From a virus: a DNA stretch of 21,728 nucleotides. The DNA lies in IMG/VR virus record IMGVR_UViG_3300025767_000147, positions 1 to 21,728 of that record. The stretch is one strand, 5' to 3'. Within the stretch, counting starts at the first letter, position 1; each line of letters opens with the position of its first letter. Positions 3,001 to 21,207 of the stretch are shown here, in pieces. The notes below the pieces were generated by a model, which had not been told where the DNA came from, searched no databases, and was given only the letters and a program-made list of their open reading frames with translations. The position numbers were made by a program, and so were the translations under genes.

Positions 3001-3779
3001 GTGGACCAGGGACTAAAGGGGCGGCAAACTCTGGCTTTGATGGAATGAAATGGAACGCCTATAGAGGACTGCACCTCAAGGGTGGCGCTGGTGGTGCTTA
3101 TAATTGCTTGATTGTAGAAAACTCTGGCGGTTCTAATAATGACCACACTGTAAAGCTATATGCAGCTAACGTATTACGGCTATCAACTACAACGTCAGGA
3201 GTGACAGTAGGAGGGGCTCTTTCAGTAGATGATACGATCGTGCATAACGGTGATACGGATACCTATATGACTTTTGACGCAGCTGACCAGTGGAAACTAT
3301 ACTGTGGTGGCTATAAAATGATACAAGCCACAGAAGCTTCATCGGGTTATGATTATATATCATTTGGTGGAACAGATAATTCTGGTGAAATTTTCTTTAA
3401 TATTAATGGCGGTGATGGTCACTTTGATGGCGATGTATATGCATTCTCTACTACAACTTCTTCTGATAGAAAGTTAAAGAAAAATATACAATCTCTTGAA
3501 GGCTCTTTAGAAAAAGTACTGGGCCTAAGAGGCGTAAGTTTTGAATGGAAAAAGAATAATAAGAAGAGTATTGGTTTTATTGCCCAAGAAGTACAAGAAG
3601 TAGTACCAGACTTAGTAAAAAATAATAGAAAAGAGCATGACGGTGTATTAGTTGATGAACACTTAGGTGTAGACTATGGAAACGTAACAGCTTTATTAGT
3701 TGAAGCTATGAAAGAGCAACAACAGATTATAAATAAATTAGAAGCAAGACTTAAAGCTTTAGAAACTGGAGAAAAATAA
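1..3779 (+). CDS. Large tail fibre protein, C-terminal S74 self-cleaving chaperone domain (5' end cut by window)
   Basis: The frame is open from base 3, so the ATG at 138 is internal (it reads HGGMTIG) and the true start lies before the window; more than 1250 codons are visible. The product is a repetitive Gly/Ser/Thr/Asn-rich fibre, probably the receptor-binding fibre at the tail or neck. Numbering from the ATG at 138, it holds four copies of a DGSGSGLDADLLDGQ-type repeat, two copies of a GDITGVTAG/TGGG repeat, and a C-terminal Peptidase_S74-type domain beginning at SDRKLKKN (Ser1109), with GFIAQEVQEVVPDLV and a final coiled coil (about 1185-1210). In endosialidases this domain trimerises the fibre and cuts itself off before the Asp, using a Ser and a Lys five residues later. 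Both are present here. The gene occupies the place upstream of gene 13 where T4 carries wac. Receptor specificity cannot be read from sequence. Confidence 0.88.
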   Translation, partial: WTGIGFNDGAALGAEYIWHNGGNGTFAIGGGGSNVANKKLHVHGGMTIGSGYAATSVTGNSLSVEGNLTVGGDFIANGQVFLANSETRPDALNSAANGQVRMGGSDVYLYVSSLNATGGYKVAVQAARASDFASFALNLQSNGGALQRAGNTVWDAGTDGSGSGLDADLLDGQHGSYYYSAANPPPGDITGVTAGTGMTGGGTSGAVTLNVIGGTGITANADNITVDSTVLTTSTYGTTLNPVYAPVKKGTATLTNSYQTVCTVDGNSLASAVRMTITGTGPSTVIGTILDIVCNHSLDILVTSQTSTYTILTVKIVSNNNEDFAVQLKTNSTNNLPVNMEVFALNSETVTFTSTNPYTGATLEHECKNGGFASSSSGGAAHSFYSNGTKLIAANDNQALHDTDALSISGSTITLRKGDNTTETIAIPAQGDITGVTAGNGLTGGGSSGTPTLNVGAGSGISVAADTVGVDSTVIRTTGDQSMSGIKTHTSRLALSSGQMLSLGDTNHHLVKVSTGYSGATVDGPRLQGHQGGELATNIGSNQYSLRWDGSGNITVRNNVNVLNDIVVGTYSTTNTGNLYLTGSTVNTQAVLKCTNGNLHIDSNAGNNTYLNYYAGNGTYFGTGASGVAAVMGPDGDLWKGSSDNAGSKYWHASNDGSGSTLDADLLDGIQGASLLRSDVADTIGGRLTMGLQHALVPADYGIGVTGLYASTRYQHVWSMGSAYATSSDGTSYGNMYGLTWTHTNIGTGTNQSIAGLSHQLQLRENGVLKCAFGTGIWTAHNITSGGQGTLFGTSNDGSGSGLDADLLDGQHGSYYLPTTGKAADSDLFDGADSSRFIYGDGAQKSTSVSSFQAQPSGFFFYSAATGAPTSEWYNWITCRGNSWGNGGEYSFQLANSFWNKKLYFQHVQTGSYQGWNEIWTSATDGAGSGLDADLLDGQQGSYYAPASHGHSYLPLTGGTLTGGLQVNGALGALRSSTNGAIWFTGTVDSNHALWNDYYGGPGTKGAANSGFDGMKWNAYRGLHLKGGAGGAYNCLIVENSGGSNNDHTVKLYAANVLRLSTTTSGVTVGGALSVDDTIVHNGDTDTYMTFDAADQWKLYCGGYKMIQATEASSGYDYISFGGTDNSGEIFFNINGGDGHFDGDVYAFSTTTSSDRKLKKNIQSLEGSLEKVLGLRGVSFEWKKNNKKSIGFIAQEVQEVVPDLVKNNRKEHDGVLVDEHLGVDYGNVTALLVEAMKEQQQIINKLEARLKALETGEK
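477..536 (+). repeat. Fibre repeat A, copy 1 (DGSGSGLDADLLDGQHGSYY)
   Basis: First of four 20-residue in-frame repeats in the tail fibre. Similar LDG-containing elements are widespread in T4-like fibres. The next copies are at 1968, 2391 and 2775. Confidence 0.85.
561..695 (+). repeat. Fibre repeat B, copy 1 (GDITGVTAGTGMTGGG...)
   Basis: A 45-residue unit (residues 142-186 from the ATG at 138). It is matched by a second copy at 1293-1427 with the same skeleton: GDITGVTAG, TGGG, TLNV, GI, then VDSTV. It is probably a structural module of the fibre shaft. Confidence 0.85.
1293..1427 (+). repeat. Fibre repeat B, copy 2 (GDITGVTAGNGLTGGG...)
   Basis: Second copy of the 45-residue module (residues 386-430). 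The spacing from copy 1 is 732 bases, i.e. 244 residues in frame. The stretch between the copies contains a segment rich in VTFTSTNPYTGATLE-like beta strands. Confidence 0.85.
1968..2027 (+). repeat. Fibre repeat A, copy 2 (DGSGSTLDADLLDGIQGASL)
   Basis: The most diverged copy of the 20-residue element. The core DGSGS-LDADLLDG is kept, while the HGSYY end has become QGASL. Confidence 0.8.
2391..2450 (+). repeat. Fibre repeat A, copy 3 (DGSGSGLDADLLDGQHGSYY)
   Basis: Protein sequence is identical to copy 1 although the codons differ at several places. This suggests the protein sequence is under selection and that the repeat is not a very recent duplication. Confidence 0.85.
2775..2834 (+). 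repeat. Fibre repeat A, copy 4 (DGAGSGLDADLLDGQQGSYY)
   Basis: Fourth copy. It is followed at once by APASHGHSYLPLTGGTLTGG, a joint common in phage tail fibres that leads into the distal domain. Confidence 0.85.
3462..3467 (+). other. Predicted S74 autocleavage site (Ser|Asp) in the tail fibre
   Basis: The codons tct-gat encode Ser1109-Asp1110 (numbered from the ATG at 138) in the motif SSDRKLKKN. By analogy with the endosialidase S74 domain, the chain is cut between Ser and Asp, with the Ser and the Lys at +5 (Lys1114, present) as catalytic dyad. Cutting here would release a 104-residue chaperone that contains the terminal coiled coil. The residues are seen; cleavage is inferred from the family. 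Confidence 0.7.
3728..3735 (+). promoter_or_regulatory. T4-type late promoter (TATAAATA) inside the fibre gene end
   Basis: Exact TATAAATA within the last codons of the fibre gene. The predicted start is G3741, giving a 40-base leader to the ATG at 3781. Because it lies in coding sequence it could be chance, but its distance and orientation suit the next gene. Confidence 0.5.
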
Positions 3780-7291: not shown

Positions 7292-8894
7292 TGAAGGCTA
7301 TATGGGCAATCCCAATGTTAAACGGGATGGCGTAGAAGCAGAATTTAGTGAAACCGAGATTAAAGAATACAGAAAATGTATGATGGATCCTGCTTATTTT
7401 GCTAGAACATATTTAAAGGTTATATCATTGGACGAAGGTTTAGTTCCATTTGATCTATATGACTATCAAGCAAATATGTTTAATCACTTTAACGATAATA
7501 GATTCTCTATTGTTTTAGCATGTAGACAATCTGGTAAATCTATTGCTGCTGTTGGTTACTTACTTTGGTATGCGTGTTTCCATTCAGAAAAAACTATTGC
7601 TATATTAGCTAACAAAGGTGCTACAGCTAGAGAAATGTTAGCTCGTGTTACTCTTATGTTAGAGAACCTACCCTTCTTTTTACAACCTGGGTGTAAAGCG
7701 TTAAATAAAGGTTCTATTGAATTTTCAAACAACTCAAAACTTATTGCTTCTGCAACTTCAGGTAGTTCTATTCGTGGTTTATCTATTAACTTATTGTTCT
7801 TAGACGAGTTTGCTTTTGTTGAAAATGACGCGCAGTTCTATACATCAACGTATCCTGTAGTTTCATCTGGTAAAGATACAAAGGTTATTATCACCTCAAC
7901 AGCTAATGGTATTGGTAATGTTTATCACAGAATCTGGGAAGGTGCTACTACATATACGAATGAGTATAAGGCGTTTAGAGTTGATTGGTGGGATGTTCCA
8001 GGAAGAGACGATGCTTGGAAAGCTCAAACAATTGCTAACACGTCTGAATTACAGTTTGATCAGGAATTTGGAAATAACTTCCATGGACGTGGTAATACAT
8101 TAATTGATGCTGGAGATCTTTTAGCTCAAAAATCTCAAAGACCGATGACATTTAATGAAAATCTGTTTATGTATGAGAAGCCAAAAGAAGGTCATAATTA
8201 TATAATGACTGTTGATGTATCTAAAGGCCGTGGGCAAGATTATAGTACGTTTAATATAATCGATACTTCAGTTAATCCATTTAAACAAGTAATGGTGTTT
8301 AGAGATAATAATATATCACCAATGTTATTACCAGACGTATGCTATAAATACGCTATGATATATAACAAAGCTTATATTATTGTTGAATCAAATGATCAAG
8401 GTGCTGTAGTTTGTAATGGACTATATTACGATTTAGAATACGAAAATATGTTTGTTGAATCACAAGTAAAGGCCAGCTCGATTGGTGCTACTATGACTCG
8501 AAGAGTAAAAAGAATTGGTTGTTCAACATTAAAAGACTTAATTGGTCAAAAGAAGCTGCACGTTATTGATGCAGAGACTATTAATGAAATGTGTACATTC
8601 GTTGCTCGAGGTAATTCTTTTGAAGCGCAGGCTCCTAACCACGATGATTTAGTTATGAACTTAGTAATGTTTGCTTGGTTTACAACAACAGATATATTCC
8701 AAGGATTGACTAATATTGATATGAAAAACTTATTATATCGTGAGCAGCTAAAAGCTATTCAAGATGATATGTTACCCTTTGGTATTATTAGTGACGGTAG
8801 TGATCATCATGTACAAGGCGTAGGAGATGGAGAAGGTAATGTTTGGTTTGAAGCTGAATATGAACGAGATCCACTTAATAGACGCTTAGTATAA
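7272..8894 (+). CDS. 17: Large terminase subunit gp17 (packaging ATPase-nuclease)
   Basis: Two-domain DNA-packaging motor, 540 residues against 610 in T4. The ATPase domain has the Walker A CRQSGKS (84-90), Walker B LLFLDEFA (174-181, catalytic Glu179) and the coupling motif TSTANG (208-213). The nuclease domain has the expected acidic residues: Asp315 (MTVDVSKGRGQDYS), Glu372 (IIVESNDQG) and Asp458/459 (PNHDDLVMN). They correspond to the T4 triad. All catalytic residues are present, so the protein should be active. The ATG used overlaps the end of gene 16 by 20 bases. The stop codon lies inside a late promoter element (8890-8897). Confidence 0.95.
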   Translation: MSRPKNDEGYMGNPNVKRDGVEAEFSETEIKEYRKCMMDPAYFARTYLKVISLDEGLVPFDLYDYQANMFNHFNDNRFSIVLACRQSGKSIAAVGYLLWYACFHSEKTIAILANKGATAREMLARVTLMLENLPFFLQPGCKALNKGSIEFSNNSKLIASATSGSSIRGLSINLLFLDEFAFVENDAQFYTSTYPVVSSGKDTKVIITSTANGIGNVYHRIWEGATTYTNEYKAFRVDWWDVPGRDDAWKAQTIANTSELQFDQEFGNNFHGRGNTLIDAGDLLAQKSQRPMTFNENLFMYEKPKEGHNYIMTVDVSKGRGQDYSTFNIIDTSVNPFKQVMVFRDNNISPMLLPDVCYKYAMIYNKAYIIVESNDQGAVVCNGLYYDLEYENMFVESQVKASSIGATMTRRVKRIGCSTLKDLIGQKKLHVIDAETINEMCTFVARGNSFEAQAPNHDDLVMNLVMFAWFTTTDIFQGLTNIDMKNLLYREQLKAIQDDMLPFGIISDGSDHHVQGVGDGEGNVWFEAEYERDPLNRRLV

Positions 8895-11268: not shown

Positions 11269-12762
11269 ATGGCAGAACTTTTTGGTTTTGAGATCAATAG
11301 AAAGGGCGGAAAGGAACCCGACCTTCCTTCTTTTGTTCCCAATACAGACGAAGATGGCGTAGGAGTCATTAACAGCGGTGGTCACTTCGGCCAGTACGTT
11401 GATATTGATGGTGACTCGGCTAAAAACGAAGTTGACCTTATTTTAAAGTATAGGGACATTGCATCACATCCAGAATGCGACGCAGCAATCGAAGATATTG
11501 TAAATGAAGCGATTGTAGGTGATAATAGATCAGCACCTATTGAAATTATTATGGATGAACTAAAGGCATCGGATAAGATTAAAGGTGCTATTAAAGAAGA
11601 GTTTGAAAACGTAATATCCTTATTACATTTTAATTCTTACTCTCATGATATATTTAGAAAATGGTATATTGATGGTAGATTACCATATCATATTATTATT
11701 GATAACGCAAACCCAAAAAAGGGTATACAAGAATTAAGATATATTGATCCAATTAAGCTTAGAAAGATTAAAGAGATCCAAGAAGAAAAAGATCCTAAGA
11801 CTGGAGCCAATATAATTAAGAAGTCAGAAGAGTACTTCTTATTTCAAGATGGAACTATGGCTGGAAATAACCAGGGATTAAAAATTCACCCAGATTCAAT
11901 TGCGTATTGTACTTCGGGCATGTTAGATCCATCACGTAAAAGAATCTTATCTCACTTACAGAAAGCTATCAAACCGACAAATCAGTTAAGAATGATGGAA
12001 GACTCATTGGTAATCTATAGAATATCAAGAGCACCAGAAAGACGTATCTTCTATATTGATGTTGGTAACCTCCCTAAAGGTAAAGCTGAAGAATATTTGA
12101 AAAACATTATGGGTCAATACAGAAATAAATTGGTCTATGATGCTAGTACCGGAGATATTAAAGATGACCGTAAACATATGTCGATGCTCGAAGACTTCTT
12201 CCTACCGCGTAGAGAAGGTGGCAGGGGTACAGAAATTTCGACCCTCCCAGGAGGAGAAAATCTCGGACAAATTGACGACATCATATACTTCCAAAAGAAA
12301 CTATACAAGTCGCTCAACGTTCCTGCTAATCGTTTAGAACAAGAGTCTGGTTTTAACTTAGGTAGATCCACAGAGATCTCTAGAGATGAAGTTAAATTTA
12401 AGAAATTCTTAGATAGATTAAGAAAAAGATTTAGCGATCTATTTTTACAACTACTCAGAACACAATGTTTATTAAAGGGTATTGTAACTAAAGAGGATTG
12501 GGCTAAATTTAAAGAAGATATCGCATTTGATTTTATTGAAGATAATTATTTTAGTGAATTAAAAGAAGCTGAAATTATGAGAGAACGATTTGAAATGCTA
12601 TCACAAATGGACGAATATGTTGGAAAGTATATTTCTAATGAATGGATCCGTAAAACAGTTTTAAGACAGTCTGATGATGAGATTGCCGAAATTAAGAAGC
12701 AAATAGATGCTGAAAGAGCTTCTGGCGAAATCGAAGATGAAGATGACGATCTTGAAGATTAA
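11269..12762 (+). CDS. 20: Portal protein gp20
   Basis: Head portal vertex protein, 497 residues (T4: 524). A dodecamer of it starts prohead assembly and passes DNA. Recognised blocks: DLILKYRDIASHPECDAAIEDIVNEAI (about 56-82), the FRKWYIDGRLPYHIIID region (about 128-144), QELRYIDPIKLRKIKEI (about 153-169), SRAPERRIFYIDVGNLPKGKAEEY (about 253-276), and GRGTEISTLPGGENLGQIDDI (about 321-341). The C-terminus is strongly acidic (EIEDEDDDLED). The ATG at 11269 has a modest Shine-Dalgarno (tgaggt). It is in T4 order, followed by 67-21-22-23. Confidence 0.95.
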   Translation: MAELFGFEINRKGGKEPDLPSFVPNTDEDGVGVINSGGHFGQYVDIDGDSAKNEVDLILKYRDIASHPECDAAIEDIVNEAIVGDNRSAPIEIIMDELKASDKIKGAIKEEFENVISLLHFNSYSHDIFRKWYIDGRLPYHIIIDNANPKKGIQELRYIDPIKLRKIKEIQEEKDPKTGANIIKKSEEYFLFQDGTMAGNNQGLKIHPDSIAYCTSGMLDPSRKRILSHLQKAIKPTNQLRMMEDSLVIYRISRAPERRIFYIDVGNLPKGKAEEYLKNIMGQYRNKLVYDASTGDIKDDRKHMSMLEDFFLPRREGGRGTEISTLPGGENLGQIDDIIYFQKKLYKSLNVPANRLEQESGFNLGRSTEISRDEVKFKKFLDRLRKRFSDLFLQLLRTQCLLKGIVTKEDWAKFKEDIAFDFIEDNYFSELKEAEIMRERFEMLSQMDEYVGKYISNEWIRKTVLRQSDDEIAEIKKQIDAERASGEIEDEDDDLED

Positions 12763-17070: not shown

Positions 17071-17517
17071 ATGAATAGCCTAGAAACAATACTTGAAATG
17101 TGGAAGAAAGATTCAGTCATTGATCAACTCGAACTGGATAAGTCAGCTCGAGATTCTGCAAAGCTTCATTCGAAGTACTTAGAACTATACTCAGTTAATA
17201 AATTAAGATTCAAGAAATTAGAACTTGAATTTAAAGTATTATTGAGAGACAAATTTATGCATTACAATGGTAAACTTACCCAAGCTGAAATGGACGCAAA
17301 GGGTTGGTCATATGATCCATTGAATGGACTTACGGTATTAAAAGGTGATATGGACAAATGGTATGATGCTGATCCATTAATCCAAGAACATCAAGCTAAA
17401 ATGCATTATACGCAAGAAATGATAGACACACTAAAAGAGATAATGGAAAATGTCAAGTGGCGTCATCAGAATATTAAAAACATAATCGAGTGGAATAAAT
17501 TTACTAGCGGGATGTAA
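17071..17517 (+). CDS. uvsY: Recombination mediator UvsY
   Basis: This 148-residue, helical, charged protein is of the UvsY family (T4: 137), which loads the UvsX recombinase on gp32-covered single strands. Seen: LETILEMWKKDSVIDQLELD (about 4-23), close to the T4 start pattern; SAKLHSKYLELYSVNKLRFKKLE (about 29-51); and a C-terminal helix WRHQNIKNIIEW. The order uvsY-uvsW is as in T4, and the two overlap by one base (TAATG), so their translation is coupled. A late promoter lies just upstream; no MotA-type middle promoter was noticed. uvsX is not in the window. Confidence 0.88.
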   Translation: MNSLETILEMWKKDSVIDQLELDKSARDSAKLHSKYLELYSVNKLRFKKLELEFKVLLRDKFMHYNGKLTQAEMDAKGWSYDPLNGLTVLKGDMDKWYDADPLIQEHQAKMHYTQEMIDTLKEIMENVKWRHQNIKNIIEWNKFTSGM

Positions 17518-19025
17518 TGGAAAAAATTATAGTCAAAAAGAAGAATGAAGTCTTCCTCCATGTTGTGACCGAACCAGGGATAGAGATGGAGTTAACAGAA
17601 CACTTTTGTTTCTTCGTTCCAGGGTATAAATTCATGCCAGCGTACAAAAATCGTATGTGGGATGGCAAAATACGCCTATTTGACTTAAGAAAGAAGGTGA
17701 TATATGGTGGTTTATTCAAATATATCAAGGAATTTGCCCAAGCTAGAGGGTATGAACTCATTTGCGAAGACAATTCTATGTATGGAAGGCCCGATACTGA
17801 AGAATTGCATGATATAGAAAGCTTCCTGAACAGTCTGTCACTCTCTGTGAACGGAGTAGGTATAACACCCCGGTCGTACCAACTTGATGCACTGTCGAGG
17901 GCGCTACGGGAAAAGAAGTCATTGCTTTTAAGCCCTACGGCTTCCGGAAAGAGTCTGATCATATATCTGGCTATTCGATACCACTTAGAAATGAATCAAG
18001 GAAACGTACTGCTGATTGTACCTACAACGTCGTTAGTTGAACAGATGTATTCAGATTTTGGAGATTATTCTGGAACTGATGAGTGGAACGTAGGTGATAA
18101 TTGTCATAAGATCTATTCTGGTAAAGAGAAGTATAACATAAAGCAAAGAGTTATTATTACTACGTGGCAGTCAATCTATAAAGAAAACTCTAATTGGTTT
18201 CAAGATTTTGGAATGGTTGTTGGAGATGAAGCTCATAACTTTAAGGCAAAGTCGTTGACATCTATACTAGAAAAATGTGTTAACGCTAAGTACAGGATTG
18301 GTACAACAGGAACCTTGGATGGATCACAAACACATCAGTTAGTACTCGAAGGTTTGTTTGGTCCAGTATTTAAGGTTACCACAACTAAAAAGTTAATGGA
18401 AGAGAATTCCTTATCACAACTAGACATATTTGTCTTGCTATTGAAGTATAGTGATGAGTATTGTAAGCTTGTATCTAAAATGAAATACCAAGACGAAATT
18501 GATTTTATTGTAAAGTACGAAGCTAGAAATAACTTTATAGCAAACTTAGCTATGGATCAAGAAGGTAATTCTCTGATATTGTTTCAGTTTGTAGATAAAC
18601 ATGGTAAACCATTACACGATTTATTAAAGAAGAAGTTCGATGAGCTTCCAAGAAATACGAGGAGATTATTCTATGTCTCAGGTGAGACCGATGTGGACAC
18701 GCGGGAAGAGATACGAGCGATCACAGAGAAACAAGATAACGCGATCATTGTCGCTAGTATGGGCACTTTCTCTACAGGTATTAATATTAAGCGCTTACAT
18801 AACATTATATTTGCTTCACCAAGTAAGTCTCAAATTCGGGTTCTGCAAAGCATCGGTAGAGGATTAAGAAAGTCAGCTGATGGTATAGATACTAAGGTAT
18901 TTGATATTGCTGATGATTTACATTGGAAGTCAAAAAAGAACTATACATTATTACATGCTGCTGAGAGGATCAAGATTTATAGTAAAGAGAAATTTGACTA
19001 TAAAATTCATGATATAAATATATAA
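17517..19025 (+). CDS. uvsW: RNA-DNA / branched-DNA helicase UvsW
   Basis: Superfamily 2 helicase, 502 residues (T4: about 503). In T4 it unwinds R-loops, moves branched DNA and shuts off origin replication late. Seen: an N-terminal DNA-binding part (1-110); TPRSYQLDAL Q-like motif (about 117-126); Walker A SPTASGKS (139-146); TTWQS (215-219); DEAH (237-240); TGTLDGS (264-270); and motif VI QSIGRGLR (444-451). All motifs are intact. The first 450 bases use more G/C-ending and CGG/AGG codons than the rest. The last codons contain a TATAAATA element for the next gene. The start is set by the TAATG overlap with uvsY. Confidence 0.95.
   Translation: MEKIIVKKKNEVFLHVVTEPGIEMELTEHFCFFVPGYKFMPAYKNRMWDGKIRLFDLRKKVIYGGLFKYIKEFAQARGYELICEDNSMYGRPDTEELHDIESFLNSLSLSVNGVGITPRSYQLDALSRALREKKSLLLSPTASGKSLIIYLAIRYHLEMNQGNVLLIVPTTSLVEQMYSDFGDYSGTDEWNVGDNCHKIYSGKEKYNIKQRVIITTWQSIYKENSNWFQDFGMVVGDEAHNFKAKSLTSILEKCVNAKYRIGTTGTLDGSQTHQLVLEGLFGPVFKVTTTKKLMEENSLSQLDIFVLLLKYSDEYCKLVSKMKYQDEIDFIVKYEARNNFIANLAMDQEGNSLILFQFVDKHGKPLHDLLKKKFDELPRNTRRLFYVSGETDVDTREEIRAITEKQDNAIIVASMGTFSTGINIKRLHNIIFASPSKSQIRVLQSIGRGLRKSADGIDTKVFDIADDLHWKSKKNYTLLHAAERIKIYSKEKFDYKIHDINI
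19013..19020 (+). promoter_or_regulatory. Late promoter at the end of uvsW; predicted leaderless start
   Basis: Exact TATAAATA within the uvsW coding end. The predicted RNA start is 19026, the A of the next ATG. The element is in coding sequence and in very AT-rich bases, so chance cannot be excluded. Confidence 0.5.
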
Positions 19026-19406
19026 ATGGAATCTATTAAAAATATTGATATAAGACACTTTAAACTAACGAATAGCGAAGACCTCATTTGTTATGTCCAA
19101 AGTTCAAGTGAACACGCCTTTATCGTAGAACGACCTGCGGTCGTAAGGGTATCACCTGATGGTACTTTTACTTTTGGAGATTGGTTTCCCTTCTCTGATA
19201 AGAAGATCTATAAAATTATGAAAAGGTTCGTGATCAATCATACTGAAGTTGTTGAAGAGACCAAAGAGTCTTACATCAAGTATTCATGTCAAGATATGAT
19301 TAGAGATGAGATTAATCGTGATCTAGAAGAGTATGAATTGGAAGGTGAATCGATGATTGAAGATGACATTAGAGATGAAGAAACCATTGAACCAACCATA
19401 CATTAA
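19026..19406 (+). CDS. Small conserved-looking protein after uvsW (126 aa), possible Sm-like barrel
   Basis: No firm family. The first 65 residues (FKLTNSEDLICYVQSSSEHAFIVERPAVVRV, given by region 12-42, then GTFTFGDWFPFSDKK) have the strand pattern of an Sm-like barrel: a short helix, then five strands with the x-x-G/S-E-D-x-I-x-x-V and x-V-E-R-P-A-x-V steps. The C-terminal 50 residues are very acidic and helical (RDEINRDLEEYELEGESMIEDD). It lies one codon after the uvsW stop without a Shine-Dalgarno, so it is expressed by coupling to uvsW, from a leaderless late mRNA, or both. If it is Sm-like, an RNA-binding role would fit, but I cannot show it. Confidence 0.75.
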   Translation: MESIKNIDIRHFKLTNSEDLICYVQSSSEHAFIVERPAVVRVSPDGTFTFGDWFPFSDKKIYKIMKRFVINHTEVVEETKESYIKYSCQDMIRDEINRDLEEYELEGESMIEDDIRDEETIEPTIH

Positions 19407-19442
19407 TTGTTGTATACCCCTAACCTCCCCGGTAACATCTAT

Positions 19443-19471
19443 ATTATATCATACTTTCGACCATTTGTAAA
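19443..19471 (-). promoter_or_regulatory. Leftward sigma70-type promoter (antisense to late genes)
   Basis: On the - strand: TTTACA (19466-19471), 17-base spacer, TATAAT (19443-19448), with TGA before the -10 (extended -10). RNA would start near 19436 and run antisense into the 126-residue gene and uvsW. It is a near mirror image of the rightward promoter. Confidence 0.6.
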
Positions 19472-19477
19472 CGTTTA
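19468..19477. repeat. Palindrome TAAACGTTTA overlapping the leftward -35
   Basis: Perfect 10-bp palindrome. It overlaps four bases of the leftward -35 element, so a protein bound here could block that promoter. No partner is known. Confidence 0.45.
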
Positions 19478-19516
19478 ATTCACCTAATAGTGAAAAAAAA
19501 TAAAATAAAATAATTG

Positions 19517-19545
19517 TTTACATTTGACCCAAACTATGATATAAT
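19517..19545 (+). promoter_or_regulatory. Rightward sigma70-type promoter for gene 55-47-46
   Basis: TTTACA (19517-19522), 17-base spacer, TATAAT (19540-19545) with TGA extension, after an A-rich tract. RNA would start near 19552, about 16 bases before the gene 55 ATG with Shine-Dalgarno ttaggag. It fits early/middle expression by host polymerase. Confidence 0.82.
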
Positions 19546-19567: not shown

Positions 19568-20143
19568 ATGACCACTAAAATCAAACCAAAAGCTAGGCCA
19601 CACTATGTCAATAACAAGGAATTCTCATTAGCAGTAGTTGAGTACGTTAAGACCGTAATAGAAGCTAAATCTAAAGATGCTCAAATCCCTAAGGTTCCAA
19701 ATTACGTTGCTGCATGTTTCATGAAAATATCTGAAGGACTGTCTCACAGACCGAACTTCGTTCGGTACACTTATAGAGAAGAGATGGTAATGGATGGTGT
19801 TGAAAACTGTCTAAGAGCTATTAATAACTATAAGATTGAAACTGCTACTAGAACCGGTAATCCAAACGCATTCTCGTATTTTACTCAGATTTGTTTCTTT
19901 GCATTTATAAGACGTATCACTAAAGAGAAGAAGCAGCAAGAAATCAAGTTTAGATACATTGAAAGAATGGGTATTGAAGATTTTACTGCTATGGGTATGG
20001 ATGATAATGGAGCTGCTCAAACGTTAGAATATGTAGATACCTTAAGGCAGAGGATCGATCAGATTAGAACTAAGGATGCTAAGATTAAAGAGTTTGCGAA
20101 GATCGAAAAAGAGAAAGAAAAACTAGAATTGTTTATGGTGTAA
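19568..20143 (+). CDS. 55: Late-transcription sigma factor gp55
   Basis: This 191-residue protein is of the gp55 family (T4: 185), a minimal sigma that directs host RNA polymerase to TATAAATA promoters with gp33 and the gp45 clamp. Seen: HYVNNKEFSLAVVEYVK (about 12-28); EGLSHRPNFVRYTYREEMVMDG (about 56-77), the block most like T4; and FSYFTQICFFAFIRRITKEKKQQ (about 101-123), the core-binding and -10 contact region. It has no region 4, as usual. The product explains the many TATAAATA elements in this window. It is preceded by a host-type promoter, not a late one (the ttaggagatataaatg start has TATAAATG, one base off). Confidence 0.93.
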   Translation: MTTKIKPKARPHYVNNKEFSLAVVEYVKTVIEAKSKDAQIPKVPNYVAACFMKISEGLSHRPNFVRYTYREEMVMDGVENCLRAINNYKIETATRTGNPNAFSYFTQICFFAFIRRITKEKKQQEIKFRYIERMGIEDFTAMGMDDNGAAQTLEYVDTLRQRIDQIRTKDAKIKEFAKIEKEKEKLELFMV

Positions 20144-20145
20144 TT

Positions 20146-21207
20146 ATGAAAGTTGCTATATTGAATGATACGCATTGTGGCGTAAGAAACTCGTCTGATA
20201 TATTTTTAAACTATCAGGAGCGTTTTTATGAAGAGATCTTTTTTCCATACCTAAAAGAGCATGGTATTACAAACATTTTACATTTAGGAGATTATTATGA
20301 GCATCGCAAGTTTGTTAACTTCAAGGCGCTTAATGCTAATCGTAAACACTTTCTTGAGCCTATGCGTGATCTTGGTATTACAATGGATATTATTCCTGGC
20401 AACCACGATGTATATTTCAAGAATACAAACGAATTATGCTCACTCAAAGAACTACTTGGCTACTTCACATCCAACGTTAATATTATAATGAAACCTACCG
20501 TCTTAGATTATGATGGTTTAAAGGTTGGTGTATTACCTTGGATTAATAGCGCAAACTATGAAGAATATACTAAATGGGCTATGACATGTAATGCATCTAT
20601 TCTTGGAGCTCATCTTGAGTTAAAAGGATTTGAGCTTATGGCTGGTATAACTAATCCTCATGGTATGAACGCTGATATCTTTTCTAGATTCGAAAGTGTA
20701 TTAACTGGTCATTTTCACACAAAATCTAGTCAAGGAAATGTTCATTATCTTGGTAATCAGATGGAGTTTACTTGGTCTGATTGTGATGATCCTAAGTACT
20801 TCCACATCTTAGATACTGAGACTCGTGAAGTTACACCAGTACGTAATCCCATTACTATGTTTAAAAAGATAGTATACGATGATGCTAAAACTGATTATAA
20901 TACTATTGATGTTTCAGAGTTTGAACATAAATTTATTAAGCTTATCGTTGTAAACAAAACTGATCTTTATATGTTTGATCGTTTTGTTGATAAATTACAA
21001 AGCATTGAAACGTATGAACTTAAAATCGCTGAAACCTTTGAGGAGTATCTTGGTGACAGCGTGGAAGATGAAAAGGTATCATTAGAAGATACTGGAGTCT
21101 TACTTGATACTTATGTCGACGCAGTTGAAACTGATTTGGATAAAGACCACATCAAAGTCGAATTAAGAAAACTATATACTGAAGCACAGAATCTCGAGGT
21201 CGTATGA
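20146..21207 (+). CDS. 47: Recombination nuclease subunit gp47 (Mre11/SbcD-like)
   Basis: Metallophosphoesterase of the Mre11/SbcD family, 353 residues (T4: 339). With gp46 it resects DNA ends for recombination-dependent replication. Metal-binding motifs in order: NDTHCG (Asp8, His10), LGDYYEHR (Asp49), GNHD (Asn86, His87), GAHLEL (His156) and GHFH (His189, His191). All are present, so it should be active. The acidic C-terminal third probably carries the gp46 contact. The ATG follows gene 55 by two bases and its stop overlaps the gene 46 start (ATGA), so 55-47-46 form one coupled unit. Confidence 0.95.
   Translation: MKVAILNDTHCGVRNSSDIFLNYQERFYEEIFFPYLKEHGITNILHLGDYYEHRKFVNFKALNANRKHFLEPMRDLGITMDIIPGNHDVYFKNTNELCSLKELLGYFTSNVNIIMKPTVLDYDGLKVGVLPWINSANYEEYTKWAMTCNASILGAHLELKGFELMAGITNPHGMNADIFSRFESVLTGHFHTKSSQGNVHYLGNQMEFTWSDCDDPKYFHILDTETREVTPVRNPITMFKKIVYDDAKTDYNTIDVSEFEHKFIKLIVVNKTDLYMFDRFVDKLQSIETYELKIAETFEEYLGDSVEDEKVSLEDTGVLLDTYVDAVETDLDKDHIKVELRKLYTEAQNLEVV

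Follow-up and report, generated by a model that had tools for sequence, protein, structure and literature searches.

Comparison of T4-like phage genomes points to a leftward-facing sigma70-type promoter, predicted to make a noncoding early RNA, at the junction between late genes and the gene 55 operon. Its retention across hundreds of T4-like phages of very different hosts suggests that this RNA has a real job. As a possible explanation, which we prefer while rating it somewhat short of probable, the leftward promoter and the promoter of gene 55 would form a two-way early promoter module, whose leftward noncoding RNA quiets or insulates the end of the late block.

The window, that is, the whole 21.7-kb stretch of DNA analysed, is an IMG/VR virus fragment of a T4-like phage; among named phages, C48C1 (Kyanoviridae) comes nearest to it by gp55, at 59% identity. 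Its genes run from structural genes through uvsY, uvsW and orf126, across a gap of 161 bp, to 55 and 47, all rightward. An earlier note on this DNA had placed a promoter on each strand of the gap, and the sequence agrees, with TTTACA AATGGTCGAAAGTATGA TATAAT read from 19471 to 19443 on the minus strand and TTTACA TTTGACCCAAACTATGA TATAAT from 19517 to 19545 on the plus strand. The features of the region are:

17517 to 19025, plus strand: uvsW helicase, the next gene antisense to the predicted leftward RNA (PHROG 16, E 1.5e-102)
19026 to 19406, plus strand: orf126, a T4-GC139 homologue of the Sm-like fold family, in antisense overlap with the predicted RNA (PHROG 527/471)
19407 to 19436, minus strand: G-rich noncoding 5' leader of the predicted leftward RNA, before orf126
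19436, minus strand: predicted leftward transcription start, a G, placed by position at the 7th base past the -10
19443 to 19471, minus strand: predicted leftward sigma70-type early promoter, -35 TTTACA at 19471-19466 and -10 TATAAT at 19448-19443, with a 17-bp spacer ending in TGA (from the sequence and its relatives)
19472 to 19516, no strand: AT-rich stretch (45 bp) with phased A/T tracts between the -35 elements, likely an upstream element common to both promoters
19517 to 19545, plus strand: rightward sigma70-type early promoter of the 55-47-46 operon
19568 to 20143, plus strand: gene 55, encoding the late sigma factor and read from the rightward promoter (PHROG 234, E 3e-51)
20146 to 21207, plus strand: gene 47 (PHROG 100, E 1.3e-91)

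The two strands have TTTACA-17-TGATATAAT in common, and our recount returns the same 11 of 17 shared spacer positions as the first count. The leftward promoter matches 11 of 12 hexamer positions at a spacing of 17 bp, within the 16-18 bp of sigma70-type early promoters, and each of the two promoters has a TG extension and ranks in the top three sites of 20 kb. The motif TTTACA-N14-TGATATAAT, with up to two mismatches, occurs three times in the window (two of them exact) against 0.27 expected, and none of the shuffles held three; the looser TTKACA-N17-TATAAT, with at most one mismatch, also occurs three times, against 0.97 expected, and is less striking, so that the evidence from the window by itself is moderate. 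It is conservation, in our comparison of relatives, that settles the reality of the predicted promoter. The start proposed near 19436 falls on a G, and a G or TG at the predicted start is conserved in relative groups B and M.

The gene map bears out the claim that all nearby genes point rightward, which holds for genes of at least 60 aa matching known families, and with it the antisense orientation of the leftward promoter to orf126 and uvsW. The profile of the orf126 family matches PDB 3by7, an Sm-like protein (E 9e-15), and Pfam Sm_like is found in 6 of 18 family members, the window protein not being among them. Relatives of orf126 carry the label methylamine utilization, and this usual annotation of the family looks misleading when set against the profile matches.

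Relatives of gp55 were gathered from IMG/VR with five queries, together with phiM12-like ones and several named phages, and conservation was counted after loci with gp55 more than 85% identical had been dropped. In the 82 loci so retained, the leftward promoter is strong in 79 (6.1 expected from dinucleotide shuffles) and the rightward promoter is present in 71 (5.9 expected). The earlier note had said that relatives without the leftward copy would speak against its proposal, and had held the match to be unlikely by chance; what we find is near-universal retention, 111 of the 114 gaps that precede gp55 in a larger set at the same threshold having a strong leftward promoter. Within these loci, comparably sized gaps elsewhere carry one in 3 of 73 cases, and gaps after terminase or sheath genes in other loci in 0 of 59. 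The promoter is present in the cyanophages P-SSM2, S-PRM1 and Syn9 and in ACG-2014d and ACG-2014f, as well as in C48C1, Pelagibacter phage Mosig and Sinorhizobium phage phiM12, with perfect or near-perfect copies in Mosig, phiM12 and loci L320-L328. It is clearly missing from L040, L057 and L386 and weak in L404. In L057, an 8-bp hairpin, TTTGGCAT-TGTC-ATGCCAAA, lies directly after the stop of the orf126 homologue (3694-3760).

In loci with an intact pair, the spacing from one -10 element to the other falls into clusters near 41, 50, 61, 71, 81, 91, 102 and 111 bp, and the 102 bp of the window lies on a peak. For loci with gp55 below 85% identity (n=123) the Rayleigh R is 0.62 at 10.4 bp (p ~2.5e-21), a scan of periods from 7 to 16 bp at this threshold peaking at 10.3 bp; at 70% p is ~2.5e-5 (n=36) and at 60% ~0.06 (n=10), all of these p-values assuming independent loci, which is only partly true. 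The Mosig group taken alone in the 70% set (n=9) has no phasing, and the control distance from the rightward -10 to the gp55 start has no such period at 85% or 70%. Pairs of loci with gp55 80-99.5% identical differ in spacing mainly by 0-2, 8-11, 17-19 and 25-28 bp and rarely by 3-7 bp, and the changes between nearest relatives agree with steps of whole turns. The A/T content between the -35 elements is in phase with both promoters, a signal as strong in none of 500 shuffles, although its period is broad. In many cyanophages the -35 elements overlap, with TTGTCAA common to both, so that some spacings are fixed. As the spacing shifts by whole helical turns, the two promoters of an intact pair appear to make up a single early module locked in phase, and we propose that their position on one helix face would couple their occupancy.

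To see what the leftward promoter is tied to, the profile of the orf126 family was applied to 136 loci. The promoter lies at most 190 bp from the stop of the orf126-family gene in 128 of these, and in four of the remaining eight (L050, L077, L079 and phiM12) it adjoins gp55. Some loci have extra genes separating the orf126 homologue from gp55 (e.g. L054, L067, L076, L369, L372, L382, L387 and L393); there the leftward promoter keeps its place where the late block ends, and the distance to the gp55 promoter can reach hundreds of bases. In L067, L076, L369, L382, L387 and L393 the leftward promoter stands without a neighbouring rightward partner. In L077 and L079, which have a gene inserted on the other side, it stays with gp55. 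Loci L320-L328 have no orf126 homologue, and the large open reading frame that abuts directly, assigned as UvsW by its motifs, is still followed by the leftward promoter. Given its retention through these insertions and through the absence of orf126, the leftward promoter is not tied to orf126, nor is its tie to the gp55 promoter a strict one; from its placement, it is a predicted mark of the late/early junction itself. The link to the gene 55 promoter drawn in the earlier note is thus supported in part, by the helically phased spacing, while the mirror pairing on which it had dwelt turns out to be dispensable, since the leftward promoter persists in inserted-gene loci that have no adjacent partner.

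These loci also bear on the suggestion that the leftward promoter is a functionless by-product of a strong, near-symmetric promoter region with incidental bidirectional initiation. AT-rich symmetry can give rise to bidirectional promoters, and the overlap of the cyanophage -35 elements would fit such an origin, but the leftward promoter is retained without a rightward partner in the inserted-gene loci and is kept at least as well as the rightward one (79 against 71 of 82), and we regard this account as very improbable. A boundary element, at which loading or collision of leftward polymerase stops late transcription from entering gene 55, would agree with a promoter that marks the end of the late block whichever gene is last, and with L057, which has the hairpin in place of the promoter. 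However, that single hairpin is anecdotal, late activity of sigma70 promoters is an assumption, and the leader conservation described below would be left unexplained, which makes a pure boundary role distinctly unlikely.

As the earlier note had said, the leftward promoter has no gene to serve: no consistent leftward open reading frame was found in relatives. A leftward small protein was considered and rejected, as the frames that begin at an RTG facing the conserved His-stop of orf126 differ both in length and in sequence. PhiM12 and phiN3 are an exception, with a frame of 50-55 aa after the leftward promoter (minus strand, L316 2122-2274 and L317 2106-2273) and a C-terminus IGDNV-P-YRRF in common that is absent in other groups. 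No conserved terminator was found, terminator-like sites occurring in 11 of 83 loci against 4.6 expected. A stable structured small RNA was likewise rejected, the folds being ordinary (z-scores about -0.7 to +1), and the leftward site matches no Rfam family. Synonymous conservation in the orf126 homologues is raised only over the last ~8 codons, so that a long antisense RNA would have no visible sequence constraint of its own.

It is the start of the predicted RNA that is distinctive. In the window, the leftward leader contains GGGGAGG at 19430-19424 and GTATAC at 19417-19412, and leaders in the two main groups are 30-39% G on the leftward side against 17-20% on the rightward. In cyanophages the first ~20 nt are far better conserved than those of the rightward RNA (0.94/0.72 vs 0.48/0.22 bits). 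An inverted repeat runs across the predicted leftward start both in the Mosig group, with 171 Watson-Crick pairs where the half-swap null reaches at most 147, and in the cyanophages, with 266 pairs against at most 251; the strand that forms the repeat is not separable by G-T versus A-C counts, which are confounded by composition. The Mosig-group repeat has a constant ATGT centre, with compensatory changes GGTCT/AGACC, GGACT/AGTCC, CGACT/AGTCG and AGACT/AGTCT (e.g. L334, L341, L394 and L407). The window's group has a weaker short hairpin slightly downstream of the start, matched by 4 of 300 nulls, and the window's own copy is poor.

Such a leader might belong to a short trans-acting or protein-binding RNA of which the first 20-45 nt matter, perhaps acting with the Sm-like protein encoded alongside. 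The excess of leader conservation in cyanophages and the Sm-like family of the adjoining gene speak for this. However, the leader varies in sequence between phage groups, no stable fold was found, the promoter is retained where the Sm-like gene is absent, and the repeat of groups B and M extends across +1 and so does not lie wholly within the RNA; taken together, these points make a short RNA improbable. The leftward RNA might also prime replication, through an R-loop near the G-rich leader that serves as an origin, like T4 oriF and oriG, and that UvsW later removes. The leader is G-rich and C-poor, the start region is conserved, neither an open reading frame nor a terminator is present, and in T4 a middle promoter with an unwinding element gives a persistent R-loop that is unwound by UvsW (PMC3016281). 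Against it, C48C1, S-PRM1 and Syn9 have no switch of GC or AT skew at the site, which is a weak test, and T4 R-loop origins do not need a specific sequence (PMC3016281), so that we consider priming, too, unlikely.

Strong promoter-like sites antisense to late genes were sought elsewhere. Besides the leftward promoter, the late blocks of S-PRM1 hold none and those of Syn9 two. C48C1 (L304-L307) has nine (e.g. at 12459, 119222 and 125302) against 1.5 expected from codon shuffles, and coding constraint accounts for its terminase site (22 seen, 19.8 expected). A genome-wide network of antisense promoters was rejected, given the lack of real excess in S-PRM1 and Syn9 and the coding constraint at the C48C1 terminase site. 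The window has a weaker promoter-like site at that same place in its terminase gene (8197-8225, minus strand), over codons of the nuclease motif.

In the two-way module that we prefer, unmodified host sigma70 RNA polymerase would fire rightward into 55-47-46, and the same polymerase would fire leftward, its noncoding product lying antisense to orf126 and uvsW at the end of the late block, with the neighbouring promoters using a common phased AT-rich segment on the same face of the helix. Leftward transcription would most likely keep the end of the late block quiet or insulated until gp55 appears, by means of polymerase collision and antisense pairing. We infer the making of the RNA, its early timing, its effect and the holding down of late genes until gp55 accumulates, and simple interference of this kind does not need the conserved initial leaders or the inverted repeats at +1. 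Here we speculate, tentatively, that marine and alphaproteobacterial T4-like phages might have the phase-locked two-way promoter as an ancestral regulatory module, in which leftward noncoding transcription serves to gate the late block or to prime replication, with the common helical face coupling it to the output of gene 55.

The phages concerned are among the most abundant viruses in the sea, and MotA, AsiA and the ADP-ribosylating enzymes, with which T4 sets the timing of its promoters, are missing from T4-like cyanophages (PMC2984593). The leftward promoter, kept at least as well as the gene 55 promoter and at a spacing set by helical turns, is a specific, mutable element with which late-gene silence and gene 55 timing in these cyanophages could be probed. 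In the literature searched we did not find it reported, and the published start-site mapping of Syn9 may list it.

Several known systems resemble it in part. Like the T4 early promoters read by host sigma70, it has a -35, a 17-bp spacer, a TG-extended -10 and AT-rich upstream DNA; it differs from them as one arm, without a gene, of a divergent and helically phased pair. Antisense transcription of T4 gene 32 was reportedly described by Belin in 1987, likewise antisense to a T4-type gene and at another locus, a likeness of description. The T4 R-loop origins oriF and oriG, and the removal of R-loops by UvsW, have been reviewed (PMC3016281); as there, the promoter would need no product, its RNA could form an R-loop and UvsW is the known antagonist. 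Those origins use MotA-dependent middle promoters, whereas the leftward promoter of the window has a sigma70 -35, TTTACA, with no MotA box at -30 and no TGCTT in the spacer. A further parallel is CfrI (Millard 2010), an antisense RNA of ~225 nt to psbA and a homing endonuclease gene in cyanophage S-PM2, which was detected experimentally and was the only antisense RNA in T4-like cyanophages called confirmed by a 2010 review (PMC2984593). The leftward RNA, predicted from sequence, would likewise be a noncoding antisense RNA in a T4-like phage, but the leftward promoter sits at the late/early junction and is far more widely conserved than CfrI.
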